Source: a virus. From it: DNA of 27,866 nucleotides. A program made the position numbers and the translations under genes. How positions within the stretch are numbered: the stretch's first letter is position 1; each line of letters starts with the position of its first letter. Below, piece after piece: positions 8,068 through 27,866 of the stretch. Where the stretch lies: positions 1-27,866 of the IMG/VR virus record IMGVR_UViG_3300034062_004184. The stretch is one strand, 5' to 3'. Below the pieces are notes generated by a model. It made no database searches. It had not been told where the DNA came from and saw only the letters and a list, made by a program, of their open reading frames with translations.

Positions 8068-8355
8068 TTATCTGTTTGCAAATGTGGTAATAGTTGGCGT
8101 GAATGTTGCCGTCGGGAATGGGTGCGGCGGCACGAATACGTCTGCCTGCGGATCGTAAGAAAACCCAATGCCAGCGAATTGTCTGCGAATGCTGCCGCTG
8201 TAGCTTGTCTGTATCCATCTTCCGCCAAGCAAAGACTGACAGAACGAGATGCCCTTGGCCTCGCTTTCGACGCCGTTGTCGAGCAGTTCCGCGTTGTTAA
8301 CAACGATCACCTGTGTGACGATGTTGTTGTCGTCGAGTTGTGCAAAATGTGCCAT
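8068..8355 (-). CDS. MAH-type fibre-associated protein, paralogue 2
   Basis: 95-aa homologue of the 104-aa product at 5034-5348 (shared MAHxAxLDxNNIVTxVIV, TSY, AGIGF/Y, FVPPxP). It has the insertion ELLDNGVESEAKGISFC, close to the version I recall from cyanophage relatives. ATG overlaps the stop of the 511-aa adhesin gene (TAATG), so the two are co-translated. Its codons are clearly GC-rich, like the adjacent half of that adhesin and unlike paralogue 1. The pair was therefore probably acquired together from another phage. Likely a partner of the adhesin; mechanism unknown. Confidence 0.55.
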   Translation of the reverse strand: MAHFAQLDDNNIVTQVIVVNNAELLDNGVESEAKGISFCQSLLGGRWIQTSYSGSIRRQFAGIGFSYDPQADVFVPPHPFPTATFTPTITTFANR

Positions 8356-9890
8356 TAGAATGTGATACTCCCGGTACCAGTGAATGTGTAGATGATGCTT
8401 CCCTCGCTGTTCGTAATCACAGGGCTACCAGTTGTCGCCGTTGCAGCGACTTGCGATTTGATAATCACAACGCCGCCTCCCCCAGCAGTACCTCCATCAC
8501 CGCCCGCACCCTGCCCAGAGTTTGCCGTGCCAGCAGAGCCAACAGAGTTGCTGCCATTGACGGGCGTGACCTGATCCGCCCCCACCGAGATACCAGCGCC
8601 ACCGCCGGAAAAATACCTCGTGCCTGAGTAGAGTACGCCGACGCTGGCTGCTGCCGCAAGCGTACTGTAAGAGCCAACACCGTCACCTCCAGCGCCAGCG
8701 GAGCCGCCGGATGCGTTTCCGCCAGCACTAGCAGCACCACCACCACCGCCGGATGCTCCAGAACCATAAGGCCCAGCGCCGTTGCCTCCGTTGTAACCTT
8801 GACCGTTTGTGCCGCTGCCGCCAAGCGATCTGCTGTCTGTTGTGAAACCGGTTCCGCCGCCGCCGCTGCCTCCGTTTTTGCCTGAGCTATTGCCACCAAA
8901 CGAACCACCACCACCGCCACCAACAGCAACAGCTAACAGGCTAGCGAATGAGGAGTTTGAGCCGTTCGTTCCGGCAGTATTTGAGCCAACGCCCGCGCCG
9001 CCGCCGCCCACCGTCACGATGTATTGTACGCCTGTTGCGTAGGCCACCGCAGACGAATAAACTACGCCGCCACCGCCGCCACCGCCGCCTACAGAAGTGG
9101 CACCGCCGCCACCACCAGCGACAACGAGAACCTCAAGCATACTCCCCGGCGTCACTGCACTACTAGCCGTCGAATATGTTCCAGTACCCACGCCATTGAC
9201 CCCAGCAACACGAAACACATACGATGCTCCATTACTCAGTCCGGTAACAGCCACACTCGTTGAGGTAGAAGCTCCGTCAGAGAATGTTGTCCACGTTGAA
9301 CCAGAATTTGATGAATATTGTACTATATAATCTGTAATCGGCGTCTGACTTAAAACTGCTGGAGCTGTCCAGGATACTGTGGCCTGAGCGTTCCCCTGAC
9401 TAGCCGTCACTCCTGTCGGTGCCGGAGGAAGAAATAAATCCCATCTAGAATCATAACTAGAACCCCCACTACCCCCAGAAGAAACTCCAGAAGCCATAGT
9501 TAAATATTCTAAAACTGTTCCTGATGGAACACTATTATTAAGAGTAACATTAGATCCATCTGTTGCAGAAAAGTCTAGGTCTGATACTAGCTTAACTCCG
9601 TCTTGGAACAAATCTAAATACCCGACAGGATAGCCACCTGACACGGCAAAACTGGTCAATGTTCCTGTTGTGCTTATTATTCCTCTAACTCCAACAGACG
9701 AAGATGATGAACCACCAACACTAGTTGATCCTATTCCACTAAGAGCTACCCAATTTGAAACTCCGTCTCCTATCTTAAGAATACTATTTGTTAAATCGTA
9801 GCCGGGCTCACCACTAGCTAATACTGGATTGACCGAAGTCCATGCTGAAGATGTTCCTTTGCGAAATGTTATTAAATCATTAACAGCCAT
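8355..9890 (-). CDS. Chimeric adhesin: Mtd-like N-terminus, FN3, polyglycine domain
   Basis: 511-aa protein with three parts. Residues 1-50 (ITFRKGTSSAWTSVNPVL ... GEPGYD ... LKIGDGVSNW) match the N-terminal domain of the Mtd-type fibre family, also seen in the 594-aa fibre. Residues about 155-250 are one fibronectin type III domain (PAPTGVTASQGNAQATVSW ... DYIVQYSS ... YVFRVAGVNG). Residues 252-460 are polyglycine, opening MLEVLVVAGGGGG, and the protein ends IIYTFTGTGSITF. The N-terminus would attach to the virion and the glycine-rich part would bind the receptor (inference). DNA for FN3 plus polyglycine is GC-rich while the 5' part is AT-rich, a sign of domain exchange near position 9420. 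Confidence 0.65.
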   Translation of the reverse strand: MAVNDLITFRKGTSSAWTSVNPVLASGEPGYDLTNSILKIGDGVSNWVALSGIGSTSVGGSSSSSVGVRGIISTTGTLTSFAVSGGYPVGYLDLFQDGVKLVSDLDFSATDGSNVTLNNSVPSGTVLEYLTMASGVSSGGSGGSSYDSRWDLFLPPAPTGVTASQGNAQATVSWTAPAVLSQTPITDYIVQYSSNSGSTWTTFSDGASTSTSVAVTGLSNGASYVFRVAGVNGVGTGTYSTASSAVTPGSMLEVLVVAGGGGGATSVGGGGGGGGVVYSSAVAYATGVQYIVTVGGGGAGVGSNTAGTNGSNSSFASLLAVAVGGGGGGSFGGNSSGKNGGSGGGGTGFTTDSRSLGGSGTNGQGYNGGNGAGPYGSGASGGGGGAASAGGNASGGSAGAGGDGVGSYSTLAAAASVGVLYSGTRYFSGGGAGISVGADQVTPVNGSNSVGSAGTANSGQGAGGDGGTAGGGGVVIIKSQVAATATTGSPVITNSEGSIIYTFTGTGSITF

Positions 9891-9935
9891 TTTTACTTAT
9901 ATCCTGGATGTTCCGTAGAGCGATTATAATAATAA

Positions 9936-9985: not shown

Positions 9986-11014
9986 TTATGGAATAAAATT
10001 ATCATCAATTATAGAATTTCCAGAAACATAACCATCATCATATGATACATTATTAGCTGTAAAATTAGAAATAATAGAAGATGCCGTTCCCGCACTCATT
10101 CCCTCAATAGTAGCTCCATTATTAACAAGATTAGCTAAGTGATGATCAATAGTTCCATGAGTTTCGAAAATTGTCAAACTTCCTTCGATCCCTTCTTCAA
10201 CATCTCCAAGCACACTTTGATCCCATACTGATACTGATTCATTTGTTGATTCGTCTGTTAAATCATCTAAAATATCAGATTCTTCTATTTGTGCGACGTT
10301 TATTGTTTCTAGATCTTCATCTGATAATATTATATCTTGAACACGAAACATATCATTAGAGTTTTCATCTATTGACAATCCACCTACGGATGTCTCAAAG
10401 CTAGCTCTTGTTAAGCCATAAGTTTGTCCTGCCTCTCCGTATCCGTCCCATGTTCTTCCATCTTTTCCAACCCAAAAACCACCTGAATCAGCTACTTTTC
10501 TTAAGATCATTGTTAGTGCGCCGCCAAGTTTTGTAATATTATATATTGTATTCCATTTCATCTCAAAGTTTAAATATGATAATGCTCCAGTACCAACTTT
10601 TATTATAGAAATAGTGATTGGTCCAATAGTGGTATATGCAGTATTGTTGAAGGTTCTTGTAACATTATTATGAACGATTCTAAAACTTTCTATTGCTTTT
10701 GCCGTTTTCCAATTTTTAACAGTGTAGTATACCTTGAGCTTCATTAAGCGTGTTTCAACATCTAGCAAAAGTAATTCTGTGCCGCCAGACCCTACTTTAT
10801 TATCTCCCCATTTTGCTAAAAACTTTCCAGACGAGTAGTTATTTGGATTAAGAGTTTGGGCCTGTCTAATATACAGGTGTGGGTCACCCCACCCTCCCAC
10901 ATTCATAGCAGCTAATTTTTTAATATTGTCTTGTTGTCTAACTACGAGTCTATTTGTAGCACGACTAATGAATAATTTACCATTACTGTTACCGAAGCCA
11001 AAAAAAGCTCTCAT
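9986..11014 (-). CDS. Virion protein with von Willebrand D-like motif
   Basis: 342-aa protein. Residues 41-47 are GWGDPHL, the hallmark of von Willebrand factor type D domains (WGDPHxxTFDG), followed by beta-type sequence (GGTELLLLDVETRLMKLKVYY, TVKNWKTAKAIESFRIVHNN). The usual TFDG and the disulphide cysteines are absent, so the resemblance may be partial. Residues about 225-280 are very acidic (DEDLETINVAQIEESDILDD), followed by a low-complexity end with SIIDDNFIP. Between adhesin genes, a role in virion surface binding is likely. AAGGAAAA lies before ATG. The first half is family-suggestive; the second half is unrecognised. Confidence 0.5.
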   Translation of the reverse strand: MRAFFGFGNSNGKLFISRATNRLVVRQQDNIKKLAAMNVGGWGDPHLYIRQAQTLNPNNYSSGKFLAKWGDNKVGSGGTELLLLDVETRLMKLKVYYTVKNWKTAKAIESFRIVHNNVTRTFNNTAYTTIGPITISIIKVGTGALSYLNFEMKWNTIYNITKLGGALTMILRKVADSGGFWVGKDGRTWDGYGEAGQTYGLTRASFETSVGGLSIDENSNDMFRVQDIILSDEDLETINVAQIEESDILDDLTDESTNESVSVWDQSVLGDVEEGIEGSLTIFETHGTIDHHLANLVNNGATIEGMSAGTASSIISNFTANNVSYDDGYVSGNSIIDDNFIP

Positions 11015-22659: not shown

Positions 22660-23481
22660 TTAGTCTTTGTCTCTTTCTAGTACAATCTCCGCATTAAGTA
22701 ATGGACTGTCCACATTATTATCAGCATAAGAGTGATATTCTGCTAATTTATTTTTAGTTTTTTGTACTGCTATGCTTAAGATTTCCATTTCTCGTCCTTC
22801 TTTTTCTCTTGTTTGTTCGTCTTCTAACATGCGTATTAATCCGACCCAGCTACTTTTTCCATCTTCTATTCTTTTGATTCGTTGTTCACGAGTAGCTTTA
22901 AGATCTTTGCTAATTTTTTGCTGTTCATTAAGGAGCTTGGTATATTCATTAGTATAATTAGCGATACTGTTGCGTGCGAACGATAGTTGAGTTTCGAGGT
23001 TAGCCAGTTTAGCAGTATCTCTTTCGCTTTCTGGTTTAGCATACAATTCGTCCACCATTCTTTGTAATTTCTCAGTATCCGTTATGTGTCGTTTCCTTTC
23101 TTTCATGCTTCTGTTAATAAGAATATCTATTGTGATAAATTGTTTAATTTGAAGTTCTTCTGCTGGTAAAACGTCTTCTCTAAATTGCTTAATAAGACCT
23201 ATCCATGTATCTTCAAAATATTCTAATTCGCCGCTCTCCTTATCGAACTGTTTAACAATTTCGTGCCAAAAGGTTTTGCCTTTTAGTTTTTGTCTTAGTA
23301 ACTGATCGTCTGAGGATGGTGCTAGTTTTAAAGAATCTACATATTTAGATATTGGTGCAGAATGTCTGTTTAGTACTTCTGCTATTTGGTCAATGGTTTG
23401 AGAGTCTAGGTGGTCTCTTATGTATTGTTCTTCTTCTAGACTGAGCTGACCTCTTTTTTTGGGGCTATTCTTCAATGTCAT
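22660..23481 (-). CDS. HTH protein, possible small terminase subunit
   Basis: 273-aa protein. The N-terminus has LSLEEEQYIRDHL ... TIDQIAEVLNRHSAPISKYV, a homeodomain-like helix-turn-helix (residues 14-50). The middle and end are long charged helices (LEDEQTREKEGREMEILS), likely coiled coils for oligomerisation. An HTH followed by coiled coils, placed upstream of terL with other genes between, fits a small terminase that recognises packaging sites. It could also be a regulator. It overlaps the sigma-factor gene by 17 nt and ends 1 nt before the gmd start, so it shares that message. Confidence 0.5.
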   Translation of the reverse strand: MTLKNSPKKRGQLSLEEEQYIRDHLDSQTIDQIAEVLNRHSAPISKYVDSLKLAPSSDDQLLRQKLKGKTFWHEIVKQFDKESGELEYFEDTWIGLIKQFREDVLPAEELQIKQFITIDILINRSMKERKRHITDTEKLQRMVDELYAKPESERDTAKLANLETQLSFARNSIANYTNEYTKLLNEQQKISKDLKATREQRIKRIEDGKSSWVGLIRMLEDEQTREKEGREMEILSIAVQKTKNKLAEYHSYADNNVDSPLLNAEIVLERDKD

Positions 23482-24127
23482 ATAGATTGTTATCTTTTAT
23501 GTAAACAATAAGTTTTTTAACGTCGGCCTTTGAGATGTTGCAATTATTTTTTAATCTTAAATAAATTTCACGAATATCTGGGGCAAATAATTTGTTATCT
23601 AAAATATCAATTAATTCTTTGAGTAGTATATCATCATATTCCATAATGTTTTGATTAATTTCAATTTTTTCATTATCTATACTGGTTAAACTCATAAGAT
23701 TTTTTTTGCTATTGTTTCGTTTGTCCCAAGAGTTATACAAATCGCAATCATTTTTATTAAGGTATTTTATGCATTGGTTATTTGATTGTTGATAAAGTTT
23801 ATCATATAAAGGACACTTTAAGCAGGGAGGATCTGGTCTTTTATAGTTATTTCGTTTGTAATTAAAGAGGCGATTTCTAACATGGGTCCATAAGAAGTTT
23901 TCAAGGGGGCGACTATGATCATATTTTTCCAAACCCTCTATTGCAAAAATAGCGGCTTGTTGTTTCATATCTTCATAATCATGATATCCAAATTTAAATT
24001 TATTAGCTAATCTTTTGCTAATATTATCTAGTACTATTAAAAATTCAGCTTCATCAACACCATTAATAGTATTGGGGGTTTTAGCCGTTTTCTTGGTTTT
24101 TTTGACTATCTTCTTCTTTTTGCTCAT
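23465..24127 (-). CDS. Phage sigma factor, T4 gp55-like, with Cys cluster
   Basis: 220-aa protein with sigma-70 region 2-like sequence at residues 35-95: LDNISKRLANKFKFGYHDYE, DMKQQAAIFAIEGLEKYD, RPLENFLWTHVRNRLFNYKR. The spacing of RF/KF, KQ, EGL-x-x-(Y/F)D and N-x-(L/F) fits T4 gp55, the late sigma, better than a full host sigma (no regions 1.1, 3 or 4). After region 2 come PPCLKCPLYDKLY and two further cysteines (102, 105, 119, 128), a possible zinc site. The N-terminus is very basic (KKKKIVKKTKKTAK). It would direct host RNA polymerase to late minus-strand genes. It is coupled to the neighbouring genes by overlaps. Confidence 0.7.
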   Translation of the reverse strand: MSKKKKIVKKTKKTAKTPNTINGVDEAEFLIVLDNISKRLANKFKFGYHDYEDMKQQAAIFAIEGLEKYDHSRPLENFLWTHVRNRLFNYKRNNYKRPDPPCLKCPLYDKLYQQSNNQCIKYLNKNDCDLYNSWDKRNNSKKNLMSLTSIDNEKIEINQNIMEYDDILLKELIDILDNKLFAPDIREIYLRLKNNCNISKADVKKLIVYIKDNNLYDIEE

Positions 24128-24254
24128 CTAGTAATTCTTCTATAGATTTAATTGGTATAGCTTCTAGGTCCTTCTTTACTTCCTCAATAATGGAACCAAC
24201 AGCCTTAGCTTCTAATATAGAATCAGCTATATGATAATTTGTATTTTTATTCAT
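24081..24254 (-). CDS. 57-aa acidic protein, first gene of minus operon
   Basis: Small frame MNKNTNYHIADSILEAKAVG then acidic helical sequence (EEVKKDLEAIPIKSIEELLD) ending QKEEDSQKNQENG. ATG is at 24252-24254 with AAGGG about 6 nt upstream. It overlaps the sigma gene by 47 nt in another frame. It is the first gene after the divergent promoter region. No family recognised. The size and acidity, and being coupled to a sigma gene, would suit a small regulator or anti-sigma-like partner, but this is speculation. Confidence 0.55.
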   Translation of the reverse strand: MNKNTNYHIADSILEAKAVGSIIEEVKKDLEAIPIKSIEELLDEQKEEDSQKNQENG

Positions 24255-24263
24255 GTGAGGCCC

Positions 24264-24291
24264 TTGCGGTATGTGGTCAATATACTATAAT
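24264..24291 (+). promoter_or_regulatory. Plus-strand promoter for HTH/fcl operon
   Basis: TTGCGG (24264-24269), 16-nt spacer, TATAAT (24286-24291), 42 nt before ATG of the HTH gene, which has AGGAG at 24321-24325. The -10 box overlaps that of the divergent promoter. Confidence 0.5.
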
Positions 24292-24314
24292 AAATAGTTA
24301 CACAATATCGTCAA
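24287..24314 (-). promoter_or_regulatory. Minus-strand promoter for sigma/packaging operon
   Basis: On the minus strand TTGACG (24309-24314), 16-nt spacer, TATTAT (24287-24292), 33 nt before the 57-aa gene start. It shares five -10 positions with the plus-strand promoter, so the two may exclude each other. Confidence 0.45.
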
Positions 24315-24332
24315 TTCCTCAGGAGATTTAAA

Positions 24333-24581
24333 ATGGCAACTTATAAAAAATGGACACAAACCGAACTTGATTTTATCGTTAATAACCAATTGGTACTTAA
24401 TGATGACGGATTGTCCGTAAAATTGTCCGAAATAACTGGCGAAAATATTAGCAGAAGCATGGTTCGTAGACAACGACGAAAGCTAAATATTAAGAAAAAT
24501 AGAGGGCGTCCTCGTAAAGATGGAGGAGTAGCCAATGTAACAGCTCCGGAAATTTCAGAGCCTGTTGATAATAACTCATGA
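24333..24581 (+). CDS. Small HTH protein with AT-hook
   Basis: 82-aa protein. Residues 6-50 (KKWTQTELDFIVNN ... LSEITGENISRSMVRRQRRK) are an HTH of homeodomain-like type, similar in outline to the N-terminus of the 273-aa protein at 22660-23481. NRGRPRKDGG at 56-65 is a classical AT-hook (RGRPRK) that binds AT-rich minor groove. The first plus-strand gene, with promoter and AGGAG, it overlaps GDP-L-fucose synthase by 4 nt (ATGA). It could regulate the divergent promoters that it sits beside. A DNA-binding role is well supported; regulation is inferred. Confidence 0.65.
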   Translation: MATYKKWTQTELDFIVNNQLVLNDDGLSVKLSEITGENISRSMVRRQRRKLNIKKNRGRPRKDGGVANVTAPEISEPVDNNS

Positions 24582-25495
24582 AAATTATTTTAACTGGTGG
24601 ATCTGGATTTTTAGGGAAATTTGTTCATCAAGAATTATTACGCAGAGGTTACGGGGATATATTCGTTCCTAGATCAAAGCTTATTGATTTGACTAAATTT
24701 GATCAAGCTCAAGAAATGATAAGATATTATCGTCCTGATACTATTATTCATTTAGCAGCAGAGGTTGGAGGTATAGGGGCGAATATGGCCAACCCAGGTA
24801 GATTTTTCTATGCTAATATGAGCATGGGTTTAAATCTTATAGAAGCTTCTAGATTATACCATGTTAATAAATTTGTGCAGGTTGGGACGGTATGCTCTTA
24901 TCCTAAGATATGTCCTGTTCCTTTTGTGGAAGAAGATATATGGAATGGATATCCAGAAGAAACTAATGCTCCTTATGGGGTGGCTAAAAAAGCATTATTT
25001 GTTATGTTGGAAGCATACCATAAACAATATAACTTAAAAAGTTGTATTTTGGTGCCATCTAATTTATACGGGCCGGGTGATAATTTTAAACCAGAGAGTA
25101 GTCATGTTATCCCGGCCTTGATCAAAAAGTTTATTGATGCAAAAGAGGGTGCGCTATCTTTTGTAGATTGTTGGGGGGATGGATCAGCTACTAGAGAATT
25201 TTTGTATGTTAAGGATGCTGCACAAGCAGTTGTAGACGGAATGGAAAAGATCAATGAACCATCTCCTATTAATTTGGGGGGTGGTTCTGAAGTTTCTATT
25301 AAGGATCTGGCGACATCTATTAAAGATTTAGTGGGATACTCTGGAGCAATTGAATGGGACGAATCTAAACCTAATGGACAGCCTCGTAGGTTTCTTAATA
25401 TATCAAAAGCTGCTAAGTTACTAGGATGGAAACCAAAGGTATCTTTGACTGACGGATTAGCAGAAACTGTGAGATGGTACGTCAAGTCGAGATGA
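24578..25495 (+). CDS. fcl: GDP-L-fucose synthase
   Basis: 305-aa SDR-family enzyme performing the epimerisation and NADPH reduction of GDP-4-keto-6-deoxymannose to GDP-L-fucose. GGSGFLGK (7-14) binds the nucleotide; AAEVGGIGAN (60-69) and QVGTVCSYP (101-109, Ser107) are typical of fucose synthases; Tyr133 and Lys137 in APYGVAKK are catalytic; VPSNLYGPGDNF (158-169) is the substrate loop. The length is normal for Fcl (about 310-320) or slightly short. ATG overlaps the HTH gene stop; no Shine-Dalgarno is obvious, so translation is coupled. The minus-strand gmd supplies its substrate. No fucosyltransferase is in the window. Confidence 0.9.
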   Translation: MKIILTGGSGFLGKFVHQELLRRGYGDIFVPRSKLIDLTKFDQAQEMIRYYRPDTIIHLAAEVGGIGANMANPGRFFYANMSMGLNLIEASRLYHVNKFVQVGTVCSYPKICPVPFVEEDIWNGYPEETNAPYGVAKKALFVMLEAYHKQYNLKSCILVPSNLYGPGDNFKPESSHVIPALIKKFIDAKEGALSFVDCWGDGSATREFLYVKDAAQAVVDGMEKINEPSPINLGGGSEVSIKDLATSIKDLVGYSGAIEWDESKPNGQPRRFLNISKAAKLLGWKPKVSLTDGLAETVRWYVKSR

Positions 25496-25763
25496 GGGGA
25501 AACTGGCTATTAAACTGGCCAATATCTTATAGACCCGCCTACTATGTTTGCACCACCCGAGGGTTTTTGGGGAAATTCCGAAATGGGCAGCAAAAACGAA
25601 AAAACCCCCTAAGTTGTTGATACATAAACACTTAGGTACTATTCTCTCTCCAAAATTTGACGTAAGTACTTATGGGATATAGAGTTATGTCAATGATTTA
25701 GAAAAAATCAGAAAATTTTGTGTTTGGCATGAAATTATATTTGAAAAAATCCAAAGATTTCTC
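25496..25763 (+). other. Intergenic region with hairpin and repeat
   Basis: 268 nt without a gene. It holds a long-loop inverted repeat, GGGTTTTT at 25561-25568 against AAAAACCC at 25600-25607, preceded by ACCCGAGGGTTTTT, which may work as a weak terminator after fcl. It also holds the 75-nt repeat copy A. I see no tRNA or open frame of note. Confidence 0.5.
25613..25687 (+). repeat. 75-nt upstream element, copy A
   Basis: Ungapped alignment to 26616-26690 over 75 nt leaves about two thirds of positions identical, in blocks: GTTG-x-TA-x-ATAA-x-CACTTA near the left, CTCC-x-AAATT-x-GAC in the middle, then TAA-x-TACTTA and TATAGA-x-TTA at the right. Copy A contains the palindrome TAAGTACTTA. 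It lies about 75 nt upstream of promoter P1. Confidence 0.6.
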
Positions 25764-25791
25764 TTGCAATGGCCGATAACTACTGTATAAT
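25764..25791 (+). promoter_or_regulatory. Early promoter P1
   Basis: TTGCAA, 16-nt spacer, TATAAT. The spacer holds GGCCGATA, as in P2 (GCCGATA) and P3 (ACCGATA). The leader then has a GAAAG-CACAAGAG stretch and a purine run to the start. Confidence 0.7.
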
Positions 25792-25831
25792 GAAAGCACA
25801 AGAGAAAAAGAAAGAAGAAAAGGAAAAGAAA

Positions 25832-26062
25832 ATGGAAAACATGATTGTTCTGAACACTGTGGCTGAGTTGCACGACCTGATCAATAACACTGGAATGGAT
25901 ACCTTTGTGAATAGGGTAGCATTTGCTAGTGATCTTCTGGAAAAGGTTCGTGAAAATGATAATGTGATCTCAATTGATGAAGAATTGGGATTCATGGATG
26001 ATGGTGGTTGGATTGAGATTGACGAAATGGGTTATGTTGTGAAAGATTTTGCAATCTGCTAA
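25832..26062 (+). CDS. Small acidic early protein
   Basis: 76-aa protein, MENMIVLNTVAELHDLIN then DTFVNRVAFASDLLEKV and an acidic end (ISIDEELGFMDDGGW). The start was set at ATG 25832-25834 because a purine leader with AGGA at 25821-25824 stands before it, and the longer frame begins inside the P1 promoter. It has its own promoter and is followed 4 nt later by the -35 of P2. No family recognised. The size, acidity and own promoter are typical of phage early genes that modify the host, but this is an inference. Confidence 0.65.
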   Translation: MENMIVLNTVAELHDLINNTGMDTFVNRVAFASDLLEKVRENDNVISIDEELGFMDDGGWIEIDEMGYVVKDFAIC

Positions 26063-26066
26063 GGTA

Positions 26067-26096
26067 TTGACAACGGAATAGCCGATACTGTATAAT
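26067..26096 (+). promoter_or_regulatory. Early promoter P2
   Basis: Perfect TTGACA (26067-26072), 18-nt spacer, perfect TATAAT (26091-26096), then AGAACCAACACAAGAG and a purine run. Very close to P3. Confidence 0.8.
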
Positions 26097-26126
26097 AGAA
26101 CCAACACAAGAGAAAAGGAAAAGAAA

Positions 26127-26375
26127 ATGATTACGCTCGACAAGGTGATGGCTGGTGTTCGACAGGTTTTCGGAAGTGATTCGTATAAGGTGCGAGTGAT
26201 TCAGGCTGGATCGTCTTTCAAGGTTGAGCCGAAAGAGATGATTCATGATGGGGTGTGGATTCGCTCTGAGGGTGCTATCGAAACCCAAATCAACAATCTT
26301 TTCTACGATATGGCTTGTGAAGCTTGTGCTGATGAGGCCGACTACATTCCGGGCCTTGACGATGGGGAATTTTAA
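26127..26375 (+). CDS. Small early protein
   Basis: 82-aa protein, MITLDKVMAGVRQVFGSDSY then KVRVIQAGSSFKVEPKEMIH and an end with MACEACADEADYIPGLDDG. The middle suggests a small alpha/beta domain; two cysteines at CEAC may bind metal or be incidental. The start has an 18-nt purine leader (AGAGAAAAGGAAAAGAAA) instead of a full GGAGG. Transcribed from P2. Family not recognised; likely early host-takeover or replication accessory. Confidence 0.65.
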   Translation: MITLDKVMAGVRQVFGSDSYKVRVIQAGSSFKVEPKEMIHDGVWIRSEGAIETQINNLFYDMACEACADEADYIPGLDDGEF

Positions 26376-26384
26376 ATTCATCTA

Positions 26385-26414
26385 TTGACAACCACCTAAC
26401 CGATAAGCTATAAT
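26385..26414 (+). promoter_or_regulatory. Early promoter P3
   Basis: TTGACA (26385-26390), 18-nt spacer with ACCGATA, TATAAT (26409-26414), then AGAATCAACACAAGAG. It matches P2 base for base over the leader apart from one C/T change, indicating duplication of the promoter module. Confidence 0.8.
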
Positions 26415-26440
26415 AGAATCAACACAAGAGGGAAAGAACA

Positions 26441-26590
26441 ATGACCATTCAAGTACAAAACACGATTCGTCGCCTAGTTGCTCGCCATGGATATTCGGCC
26501 ACGTTTGTTCAGAATATGGGCGAAGGTATTTGTTTGTACAGTATTGGAGGGATCATGTATCGTATTCGTGGTGACGGAACGATTCTCTAA
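26441..26590 (+). CDS. 49-aa early protein
   Basis: Short frame MTIQVQNTIRRLVARHGYSA then TFVQNMGEGICLYSIGGIMY and a basic end RIRGDGTIL. ATG 26441 is preceded by AGAGGGAAAGAACA. The compact, basic alpha/beta-like sequence resembles small regulatory or structural peptides, not a known family. It has its own promoter P3, which argues that it is real. Confidence 0.6.
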   Translation: MTIQVQNTIRRLVARHGYSATFVQNMGEGICLYSIGGIMYRIRGDGTIL

Positions 26591-26615
26591 GAACATTTGT
26601 ATAGGCTGAACGTAA

Positions 26616-26690
26616 GCTGTTGGTAGATAAGCACTTACGACAACGTCGGCCTCCCAAATTCGACATAACTACTTACCCTGTATAGACTTA
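26616..26690 (+). repeat. 75-nt upstream element, copy B
   Basis: Ungapped partner of copy A with the same block order; the middle of the element (about 10 nt after CACTTAC) is diverged. It ends 36 nt before promoter P4. No gene lies in 26591-26800 apart from this element and P4. Confidence 0.6.
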
Positions 26691-26725
26691 GAGAAACCTT
26701 ACGAAATTGCAAGGAAAGTTTTTCA

Positions 26726-26754
26726 TTGACATCTAAAGATTCTCATGGTATAAT
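26726..26754 (+). promoter_or_regulatory. Early promoter P4 (consensus with extended -10)
   Basis: Perfect TTGACA (26726-26731), 17-nt spacer, TGG then TATAAT (26749-26754): the strongest promoter in the window, with extended -10 TGn. Confidence 0.85.
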
Positions 26755-26800
26755 GTCGATATAAGAAGTAAGAGAAAAAGAAAGAAAGAGAAAAAGAAAA

Positions 26801-27025
26801 ATGGAAAAAACCACTAACATCAACAGTTTCATCAACACCCTTCCCAAGATTGTTCAGAAGAAGGTTTGGAAAGTAACCGACCAAGATGGTACGGTTGTTC
26901 AGTATGTTGGTGCTACCGATAATCGGAAAAGTTCTGCACAAGCGTACATTGACCAAAAGTATGTTGGTCAAAAGCTTACCCTGACGTTTTCGCACTTCAA
27001 AGGATTGATGACCCTCCCCCGATAA
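26801..27025 (+). CDS. Small basic early protein
   Basis: 74-aa protein, MEKTTNINSFINTLPKIVQK then KVWKVTDQDGTVVQYVGATD and a basic middle (NRKSSAQAYIDQKYVGQKL). ATG 26801 follows a purine leader of about 30 nt. Predicted helix then beta hairpin. No family recognised. It is served by P4, the best promoter here, so high early expression is likely. Basic charge could fit nucleic-acid or host-protein binding; not shown. Confidence 0.65.
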   Translation: MEKTTNINSFINTLPKIVQKKVWKVTDQDGTVVQYVGATDNRKSSAQAYIDQKYVGQKLTLTFSHFKGLMTLPR

Positions 27026-27031
27026 GAGGGG

Positions 27032-27059
27032 TTGACGGGGCGACAAAGTTTGATAGAAT
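27032..27059 (+). promoter_or_regulatory. Early promoter P5
   Basis: TTGACG (27032-27037), 16-nt spacer, TAGAAT (27054-27059), followed by a purine leader. It stands just behind the preceding stop codon. Weaker than P2-P4. Confidence 0.55.
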
Positions 27060-27085
27060 TCTGGAAAGAGAAAGAGAGAAAGAAA

Positions 27086-27283
27086 ATGAATTTTGGATAC
27101 GAAACTTGGCATACGATGAAGTTTGGCAATACCACTGCAACCTTCAAGGTTTATCCTAGTGGTTCCTTTGTGATTCAAACCATCCTGCGTGATGGAAAGA
27201 ATGTTACCGATAGCCTTTTGGCTAATCGTAGTGTCTCTGGATTGATTCGGTTCAATGTCGCCAATAATCTTATCAAGTATTGA
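27086..27283 (+). CDS. Small early protein, beta-rich
   Basis: 65-aa protein, MNFGYETWHTMKFGNTTATF then KVYPSGSFVIQTILRDGKNV and IRFNVANNLIKY. The start ATG 27086-27088 follows GGAAAGAGAAAGAGAGAAAG; the longer frame starts at TTG inside P5 and is rejected. Alternating hydrophobic residues suggest beta strands. Family not recognised. A further two genes follow closely and may be co-transcribed from P5. Confidence 0.6.
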   Translation: MNFGYETWHTMKFGNTTATFKVYPSGSFVIQTILRDGKNVTDSLLANRSVSGLIRFNVANNLIKY

Positions 27284-27293
27284 AAGAATTCTA

Positions 27294-27413
27294 ATGATTA
27301 CAGCTATCGAATATTTTCAGCTGTTTGCCTTGATTGCTTTTGCCGGTTTCATTTCGTATACTGTTCACGAAGTGGGTAACGCTGTTCAATCCATCCTGCA
27401 TGAGAACGACTAA
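27294..27413 (+). CDS. 39-aa membrane microprotein
   Basis: MITAIEYFQLFALIAFAGFI then SYTVHEVGNAVQSILHEND. Residues 8-22 form a hydrophobic segment consistent with one membrane helix, with a polar C-terminal tail. It overlaps the next start (TAATG). It could act at the membrane, but no specific role can be given. Small size lowers confidence. Confidence 0.45.
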   Translation: MITAIEYFQLFALIAFAGFISYTVHEVGNAVQSILHEND

Positions 27414-27565
27414 TGAAAAAGTGGATTTGTTATAATGTGTTGGGAGAGAATCCAGAGACTATAGATACTTTTGGAATAGTTTCTGGATTGGGTATCTTGG
27501 CTTTGCTGTTTGGTAGTTGGGCTTTCCTGTTTGTTTTTCTTCCTCTATATGTTTGGATAATGTAG
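27413..27565 (+). CDS. 50-aa membrane microprotein
   Basis: MKKWICYNVLGENPETIDTF then GIVSGLGILALLFGSWAFLF and VFLPLYVWIM. The last 30 residues are almost wholly hydrophobic, enough for one long or two short membrane helices. Its ATG shares the stop A of the preceding gene (TAATG), the sign of translational coupling. TATAAT at 27431 lies inside this gene. Together with the 39-aa protein it looks like a small membrane pair. Confidence 0.5.
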   Translation: MKKWICYNVLGENPETIDTFGIVSGLGILALLFGSWAFLFVFLPLYVWIM

Positions 27566-27566
27566 T

Positions 27567-27866
27567 ATGACACACTATGAAGCAGTAAAGATGGTTCGTG
27601 GTAAGACTAATAAGGATACTCGTAAGGTAGGCAATAATACCTATGCAGAGATATTGCCTGATGGTAGTGTAGGGATCATGCTGCATAGTACCTATGTGGT
27701 GAAGATTCATCCTGACAATAGTGCTACCCTCAATACTGGTGGATGGTATAGTGCTACCACTAAGGATAGAATCAATCAGTATTCACCCGTGCGAGTGTAT
27801 CAACGCAAGGGACAGTGGTATCTGGACAGTGGCCTAGAGTATGAAGATGGTATGGTTGTGGCCGAT
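27567..27866 (+). CDS. Partial conserved phage protein (TKDRINxYxP family)
   Basis: At least 100 aa, MTHYEAVKMVRGKTNKDTRK then VGNNTYAEILPDGSVGIMLH, VVKIHPDNSATLNTGGW and TKDRINQYSPVRVYQRKGQW. I recognise the pattern N-T-Y-x-E-(I/V)-x-x-DGS ... H-PD-x-S/T-x-T-L-x-x-GGW ... TKDRIN-x-(Y/F)-(S/A)-P-(V/I) from many phage genomes, where its role is unknown. It starts 1 nt after the preceding stop. The C-terminus leaves the window. Confidence 0.7.
   Translation, partial: MTHYEAVKMVRGKTNKDTRKVGNNTYAEILPDGSVGIMLHSTYVVKIHPDNSATLNTGGWYSATTKDRINQYSPVRVYQRKGQWYLDSGLEYEDGMVVAD

Follow-up and report, generated by a model that had tools for sequence, protein, structure and literature searches.

Several kinds of repeated, non-coding site are known from phage genomes. 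The SPBRE operators of phage SPbeta, each a single 15-bp motif, were recognised from sequence well before their binding protein was identified; this is MrpR (YopR), which acts as a repressor and has the fold of a tyrosine recombinase (PMC10516654). Mycobacteriophage L5 carries more than 20 stoperators/operators per genome, which are 13 bp long, asymmetric and bound by a monomer (PMC9283540). The PeSLs of T4-like phages combine a promoter with a terminator stem-loop and are RNA structures, in the account of Arbiol (2010) and Comeau (2014) cited in PMC4503421.

The window analysed here spans 27,866 nucleotides, a fragment of 27.9 kb within a virus record, and contains two look-alike intergenic stretches. 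These are members of a large family of ~90-bp doubly symmetric sites, and the element is probably an operator or enhancer for one dimeric regulator, through which a presumed early block of ~19 kb would come under common control.

Two copies in the window and their family

An initial annotation had pointed out two 75-nt stretches, 25613–25687 and 26616–26690, as diverged non-coding elements, each ahead of a promoter. They align without a gap and are identical at 51 of 75 positions; when the region was resampled 40 times with a Markov-1 model, the best self-match of 75 nt had a mean of 39.9 and a maximum of 43. Their non-coding status was confirmed, as copy 1 sits past the ORF 24578–25495 and ahead of one starting at ~25835, and copy 2 past 26441–26590 and ahead of 26801. 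A sigma70-like promoter lies downstream of each. The true limits of the element are wider than 75 nt, at ~86–90 bp, and the features are as follows.

25608–25693, plus strand: element copy 1, double-dyad site upstream of promoter 25764–25791; nhmmer family match, E 1.9e-11, with a profile built from the family, relatives of both window copies included
25608–25636, no strand: left dyad of copy 1, CCTAAGTTGTTGATACATAAACACTTAGG, from the sequence, with the axis taken from the family alignment
25661–25689, no strand: right dyad of copy 1, CGTAAGTACTTATGGGATATAGAGTTATG, from the sequence and family alignment; 53 bp from the left dyad, includes the TATAGA of the initial annotation
25764–25791, plus strand: predicted sigma70-like promoter TTGCAA-16-TATAAT, downstream of copy 1
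26610–26693, plus strand: element copy 2, double-dyad site upstream of promoter 26726–26754; nhmmer family match with the same profile, E 7.6e-15
26611–26639, no strand: left dyad of copy 2, CGTAAGCTGTTGGTAGATAAGCACTTACG, from the sequence and the family alignment axis
26664–26692, no strand: right dyad of copy 2, CATAACTACTTACCCTGTATAGACTTAGA, from the sequence and family alignment; 53 bp from the left dyad
26726–26754, plus strand: predicted sigma70 promoter TTGACA-17-TATAAT with TG ahead of the −10, downstream of copy 2

An exact search with the shared blocks led to two near-identical contigs, one of which (IMGVR_3300045999_005924) contains further diverged copies. Profile searches of 12 element-bearing blocks and of the window returned 156 full-length copies, 152 of them non-identical; the first seeds were a plain 11-bp core, the genomes in which the copies were counted also served to train the profile, and several of the counts given below include orthologous copies. 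Oriented by gene direction, the 152 copies align without any internal gap over ~90–100 columns (91 bits), with the consensus acTtgaCgTAAacCCTTgntncntAAGgACTTAGGgCgAgnncGGcCGGCCnaaTTTGACGTAAGTcCTTATntnnCAAcgacTTACGaCAA. One element consists of two 29-bp dyads, CGTAAGTnnTT-N7-AAnnACTTACG, placed 53 bp apart with a GC-rich centre between them, and the alignment has dyad axes at column 29, at column 82 and, more weakly, a global one at 55.5. Conserved throughout the family are CGTAA...ACTTA(G/C)G, the GC-rich centre and TTTGACGTAAGT...ACTTACG, while the variable ‘loops’ keep a constant length in all 152 copies.

The resemblance pointed out in the initial annotation is real and extends further than described there; the block CTCCxAAATTxGAC is partly private to the two window copies. 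The annotation's proposal of binding sites at a fixed distance, as in an operator or enhancer, agrees with a dyad spacing of exactly 53 bp in 152 copies without indels, and is further supported by the intergenic position, the orientation with transcription, the preferred promoter distance and the single dyads over core promoters described below. It also proposed that a different polymerase might use the element as a promoter (TTGAC...TATAGA), which is rejected because TATAGA is only a half-site: it is the form taken by the fourth half-site in the window copies and no conserved block of the family, which has nnCAAcgacTTACG at this position in its consensus. Neither a conserved −35/−10-like pair within the element nor a conserved −10 at the expected distance is present in the family consensus. 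The additional copies that the initial annotation suggested looking for number 15 in the close relative IMGVR_3300045999_005924 and 15–17 in other relatives, in which the element is conserved. Identity between copies within one genome has a median of 55%, whereas the best match of a copy in another genome typically reaches 71–85%; individual sites were therefore inherited and not freshly spread. Recent spreading of a mobile repeat is for the same reason unlikely.

The site is palindromic and often lies shortly past a stop codon and ahead of a new promoter, as T4 PeSLs do, and it could accordingly be thought to work in RNA, as a terminator, a stability hairpin or a PeSL-type stem-loop at gene ends. 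However, complementarity of the arms is what independent columns would give (0.63 vs 0.61 and 0.61 vs 0.63), mutual information at paired columns stays at background level, and GT mismatches show no excess over AC in the arms of the 152-copy alignment. RNAalifold returned a consensus fold with 0 pairs, and T-tracts follow 24/152 elements as against 25/152 shuffled ones. The constant loop lengths, the absence of Rfam families from window positions 24000–27866, and single dyads found upstream of or inside promoters also speak against it. A tRNA search likewise gave none. A hairpin or terminator was discarded for want of covariation, consensus fold and T-tract, and an RNA-level element of any kind is very unlikely. 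Action at the DNA level, as a regulatory site, would be the best reading of these sequences.

Placement relative to genes and promoters

The terminase of the window has 531 relatives in IMG/VR; none above 60% is from a cultured phage, the best cultured ones showing 24–34% over parts. Relatives bearing the element have genomes of up to 244 kb and terminases 76–100% identical to that of the window. In the 24 relatives and dyad-bearing records searched, the matches are grouped in one block per genome. A sequence-only model, R1, places ~17 sites (33–37 matches on both strands) in most relatives of ~190–244 kb, the exceptions being G006, the record of which starts inside the block (14 matches), and G025 (51 matches). 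Two genomes were searched whole: one of 230 kb has 17 copies at 35.4–54.6 kb and none elsewhere, the other, of 223 kb, has 17 copies at 16.9–35.5 kb and none elsewhere. Both are 90–91% coding by a simple codon model made for this analysis, from which the flanking genes were also taken. Confinement to one block of ~19 kb is seen in other genomes too, among the matches listed, and successive copies within a block are ~1–1.1 kb apart. In G025, a record of 228,972 bp, the block runs across both record ends, and this genome is therefore circular or circularly permuted.

Flanking genes are co-directional in 147/152 copies, and the orientation of the copy, determined with a matrix trained leave-one-genome-out, equals gene direction in 147/152. 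The upstream stop codon lies at a median of 21 nt (quartiles −1 to 69), with 93/145 copies between −12 and 60 nt. A sigma70-like promoter (≥10/12, within 220 nt downstream) follows 122/152 copies, compared with 8/152 in shuffled sequence, and 30/152 have no good promoter within that distance. One site is thus found at many promoters of a genome (17 copies in each of the two whole genomes), as is characteristic of dispersed operators.

Regular spacing of ~1.1 kb, palindromic repeats and a single block per genome would also be features of replication, partition or DNA-organisation sites, for which the hr repeats of baculoviruses may serve as a comparison. This explanation does not account for the strict tie to transcription direction and promoters, nor for copies that are 55% identical and intergenic only, and we regard it as highly improbable; a classical origin would hardly be expected to consist of ~17 copies over 19 kb that follow the direction of transcription.

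All start sites, gene classes and operons referred to here are predicted. The centre of the right dyad is 77–79 bp ahead of the predicted start in 25/88 non-redundant copies, others lying at 67–68 or 88–89 bp. Helical phasing of this distance is modest and suggestive only (jitter P = 0.003, with periods near 9 and 12 bp equal or better and the copies partly orthologous). In the window the distance is ~83 bp for copy 2 and, from the coordinates, ~123 bp for copy 1, the value of 123 recurring in a near-identical relative. Among the strongest promoters of the blocks only 80/160 are preceded by an element, which is therefore no obligatory promoter part.

A bound repressor might instead act as a roadblock to elongation, stoperator-like, and leave initiation untouched. 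L5 stoperators work in this way (PMC9283540), and the intergenic position, the orientation with transcription and the nearby upstream stop codons would suit it. The distance to the next promoter, however, prefers ~−78 while that to the upstream stop is broad (see the quartiles above), and the L5 sites are single, 13-bp and asymmetric, which makes this explanation very unlikely.

Single dyads occur at the distal block edge and in the relatives G017 and G018 (terminase 79–80%), which are without double elements. In 15/15 of those listed the right half-site holds the −35, TTG(C/T)G(A/G/T), at 16–17 bp from an extended −10 (TGG, then TATAAT, TATACT, TATGAT or TACAAT); these sites were picked from weak profile matches and fall into few orthologous groups, so that the independent cases are fewer than 15. 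Other single dyads, in some relatives, lie just 3′ of the −10. Transcription factor sites are normally found at such places.

That the block is early is presumed from its host-type promoters and the layout of the genes. Next to it, a divergent arm contains the terminase and capsid genes and, at its border, one further feature of the window.

23465–24127, minus strand: sigma-70 region 2 protein, at the edge of the divergent arm; Pfam score of 24.1 bits, just at the cut-off of 24

Some further observations concern the surroundings of the elements. The ORF 26127–26375 is missing in two near-identical relatives, L003 and L005, and the deletion lies between two 56-nt direct repeats that hold the promoters (26065 and 26383; region 26065–26438). 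The promoter at 25764–25790 differs from its counterpart in L003 (11562–11588) by several clustered bases, the phages being otherwise near-identical, as if promoter pieces had been exchanged. A second recurring motif of the clade, CCTTACGA(A/C)ATTGCAAGG, forming a small hairpin, stands between elements and promoters (26697–26714 in the window), and GCAAATGCTATGCCAAA-like stretches likewise recur in this clade. At the distal block edge a conserved stretch of ~60 nt, GTCTCGCCTAATCCAACGGATTTGCTGGCGTTGCTGGTAGTCAGCC, is recurrent and resembles a structured RNA or a leader.

L154, ~9830–9900: GTCTCGCCTAATCCAACGGATTTGCTGGCGTTGCTGGTAGTCAGCC stretch
L164, ~10110–10180: GTCTCGCCTAATCCAACGGATTTGCTGGCGTTGCTGGTAGTCAGCC stretch
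L168, ~8215–8285: GTCTCGCCTAATCCAACGGATTTGCTGGCGTTGCTGGTAGTCAGCC stretch
L155, ~2690–2760, reverse: GTCTCGCCTAATCCAACGGATTTGCTGGCGTTGCTGGTAGTCAGCC stretch

The dyad in distant phages, bacteria and plasmids

The single dyad was found in at least 120 stretches of viral sequence and the reversed palindrome in 0. Across 111 viral loci, selected because they hold one match, the dyad was counted 730 times at ≤4 mismatches, compared with 5 times for the control, and the distances between paired dyads peak at 53, 50, 42, 52 and 48. Whole records have one main spacing each (53, 50, 48 or 42/40), which is constant within most phages. A terminase related to that of the window was present in 17/19 dyad-bearing records tested, the more distant ones at 25–31% identity. 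As the dyad is kept at this identity and the spacing differs (53, 50, 48, 42), the group offers a testable case of regulator–site co-evolution. MaeS and Stahl, both distantly related, lack a dyad at ≤4 mismatches. Searches of cultured phages returned no record matching the motif, with no double element and short partial matches only for the single dyad, and the motif was not found in print in a phage context in the open literature searched.

A bacterial scan gave 0 matches to the full double element and at least 115 stretches with the single dyad, against a few expected from base composition, although genomes are generally rich in inverted repeats. The reversed palindrome, which is the proper control, was found 0 times in the viral contigs and 0 times in 22 bacterial genomes, all 22 chosen for holding a match. 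Among bacterial genomes chosen in this way, dyads number up to 41 in a Planctomycetaceae bin (G042) and 28 in a Treponema bin (G048), where they sit in short repeats of 28–41 copies (loci L480–L493). One Treponema dyad repeat has TIR-like ends, and in three copies from Treponema the left flank differs right from the edge of the palindrome. Roughly one in four of the bacterial matches listed adjoins tRNA-like sequence, as judged by eye, several Bacteroidota matches lie inside ribosomal-protein operons, and some others are on phage-like contigs. Two plasmids, R7K (IncW) and BPP5P1, have a close variant of the dyad beside their nic hairpin (L510 2501–2529 and L511 3001–3029), a region which, from R388-like plasmids, we take to be oriT.

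Over-representation in some bacterial genomes and the two plasmid nic sites count against a dedicated phage operator, which would not predict them. The dyad CGTAAGTC.TT-N7-AA.GACTTACG could be bound by a DNA-binding protein that is conserved widely but has escaped notice, encoded by the host or on many mobile elements, around the sites of which a large superclade of uncultured phages would have built a gene block at a lineage-specific fixed spacing; the same site would be used in the bacterial repeats and beside some plasmid nic sites. This possibility is tentative and unlikely.

Tyrosine-recombinase core sites have two arms flanking a short centre, and each dyad, with 11-bp arms and a 7-bp centre, resembles them. 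The elements may on this account be recombination sites, with the block as a cassette array, or as a PeSL-like cassette by which modules are shuffled through homology. Elements often lie close behind stop codons and ~1 kb apart, and similarity between relatives ends on elements in 19.5% of cases vs 8.1% at random (2.4-fold); such ends are, however, enriched in other intergenic DNA too (39% vs 24%, ~1.6-fold). The tRNA-like neighbours and the altered left flanks of some Treponema copies would agree with recombination, but no integrase recurs beside the bacterial matches. PF00589 was above cut-off in 0/14 clade genomes (one sub-threshold), compared with 14/14 positive control genomes, although a very diverged fold could escape. 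Furthermore, the 7-bp centres vary between copies of one genome, the placement relative to −35 and −10 is left unexplained, and the sole clean gene deletion seen falls between promoter repeats and not elements. We therefore consider recombination sites improbable.

Proposed regulator and known systems

We infer that a protein binds the element as a dimer and controls transcription of the block. According to the operator or enhancer model, each 29-bp dyad would be bound by a dimer of one regulator, and a distance of 53 bp, about five helical turns, would put two dimers on the same side of the DNA. With ~17 copies between operons, oriented with transcription, the genes of the ~19-kb block could be controlled together. 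Action would be from upstream of sigma70-type promoters, with the downstream dyad centre preferably at ~−78 and also at −68 and −89; dyads used singly overlap the −35 hexamer or, in some relatives, sit immediately 3′ of the −10. A pair of dimer-type sites separated by five turns, oriented and promoter-spaced, together with single copies on core promoters, fits control of initiation. A repressor would agree with promoters close to consensus and with sites at the −35 or past the −10, a class I activator with positions near −68, −78 and −89, and a dual regulator, both activating and repressing, covers both.

The proteins shared by the dyad-bearing phages form a core of replication, packaging and a sigma-like factor. 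This core contains no convincing DNA-binding candidate for the regulator, only weak HTH- or sigma-like ones; a member of the sigma-70 region 2 family was found by profile search in 6/6 other dyad-bearing phages. The first gene of the rightward arm (24333–24581, plus strand) encodes a small basic protein whose GRPRK tail is AT-hook-like; this protein is conserved in relatives and is a possible regulator. For this phage group nothing on gene control was known before. The ~17 sites per genome would mark operons switched together and provide a regulon map for big, often giant, uncultured phages.

Like SPBRE, the dyad is one short element repeated in intergenic and promoter regions, in part of a large phage genome and regulon-like. 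It differs in that there are two 29-bp dyads with a constant spacing of 53 bp, which in most cases precede the promoter, and, in contrast to SPBRE/MrpR, the clade has no PF00589 protein above cut-off (14 genomes) and no known lysogeny. The same lack of a cognate tyrosine recombinase in these 14 genomes distinguishes the block from an integron attC array. With L5 stoperators it shares many intergenic, transcription-oriented sites per genome, but here the sites are doubly symmetric and promoter-linked. With T4 PeSLs, as far as the cited account describes them, it has in common a repeated non-coding module between small hypervariable genes, adjoining an early-type (host sigma70) promoter; unlike these it shows neither RNA structure nor T-tract, and its conserved part does not include the promoter. 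The sites of class I activators, for example CRP, are centred at −61.5, −71.5, −82.5 and −92.5. The element resembles them in having a dyad upstream of the −35 at the helically spaced positions −68, −78 and −89, and departs from them in its two dyads per site, its different offset and the many promoters near consensus.
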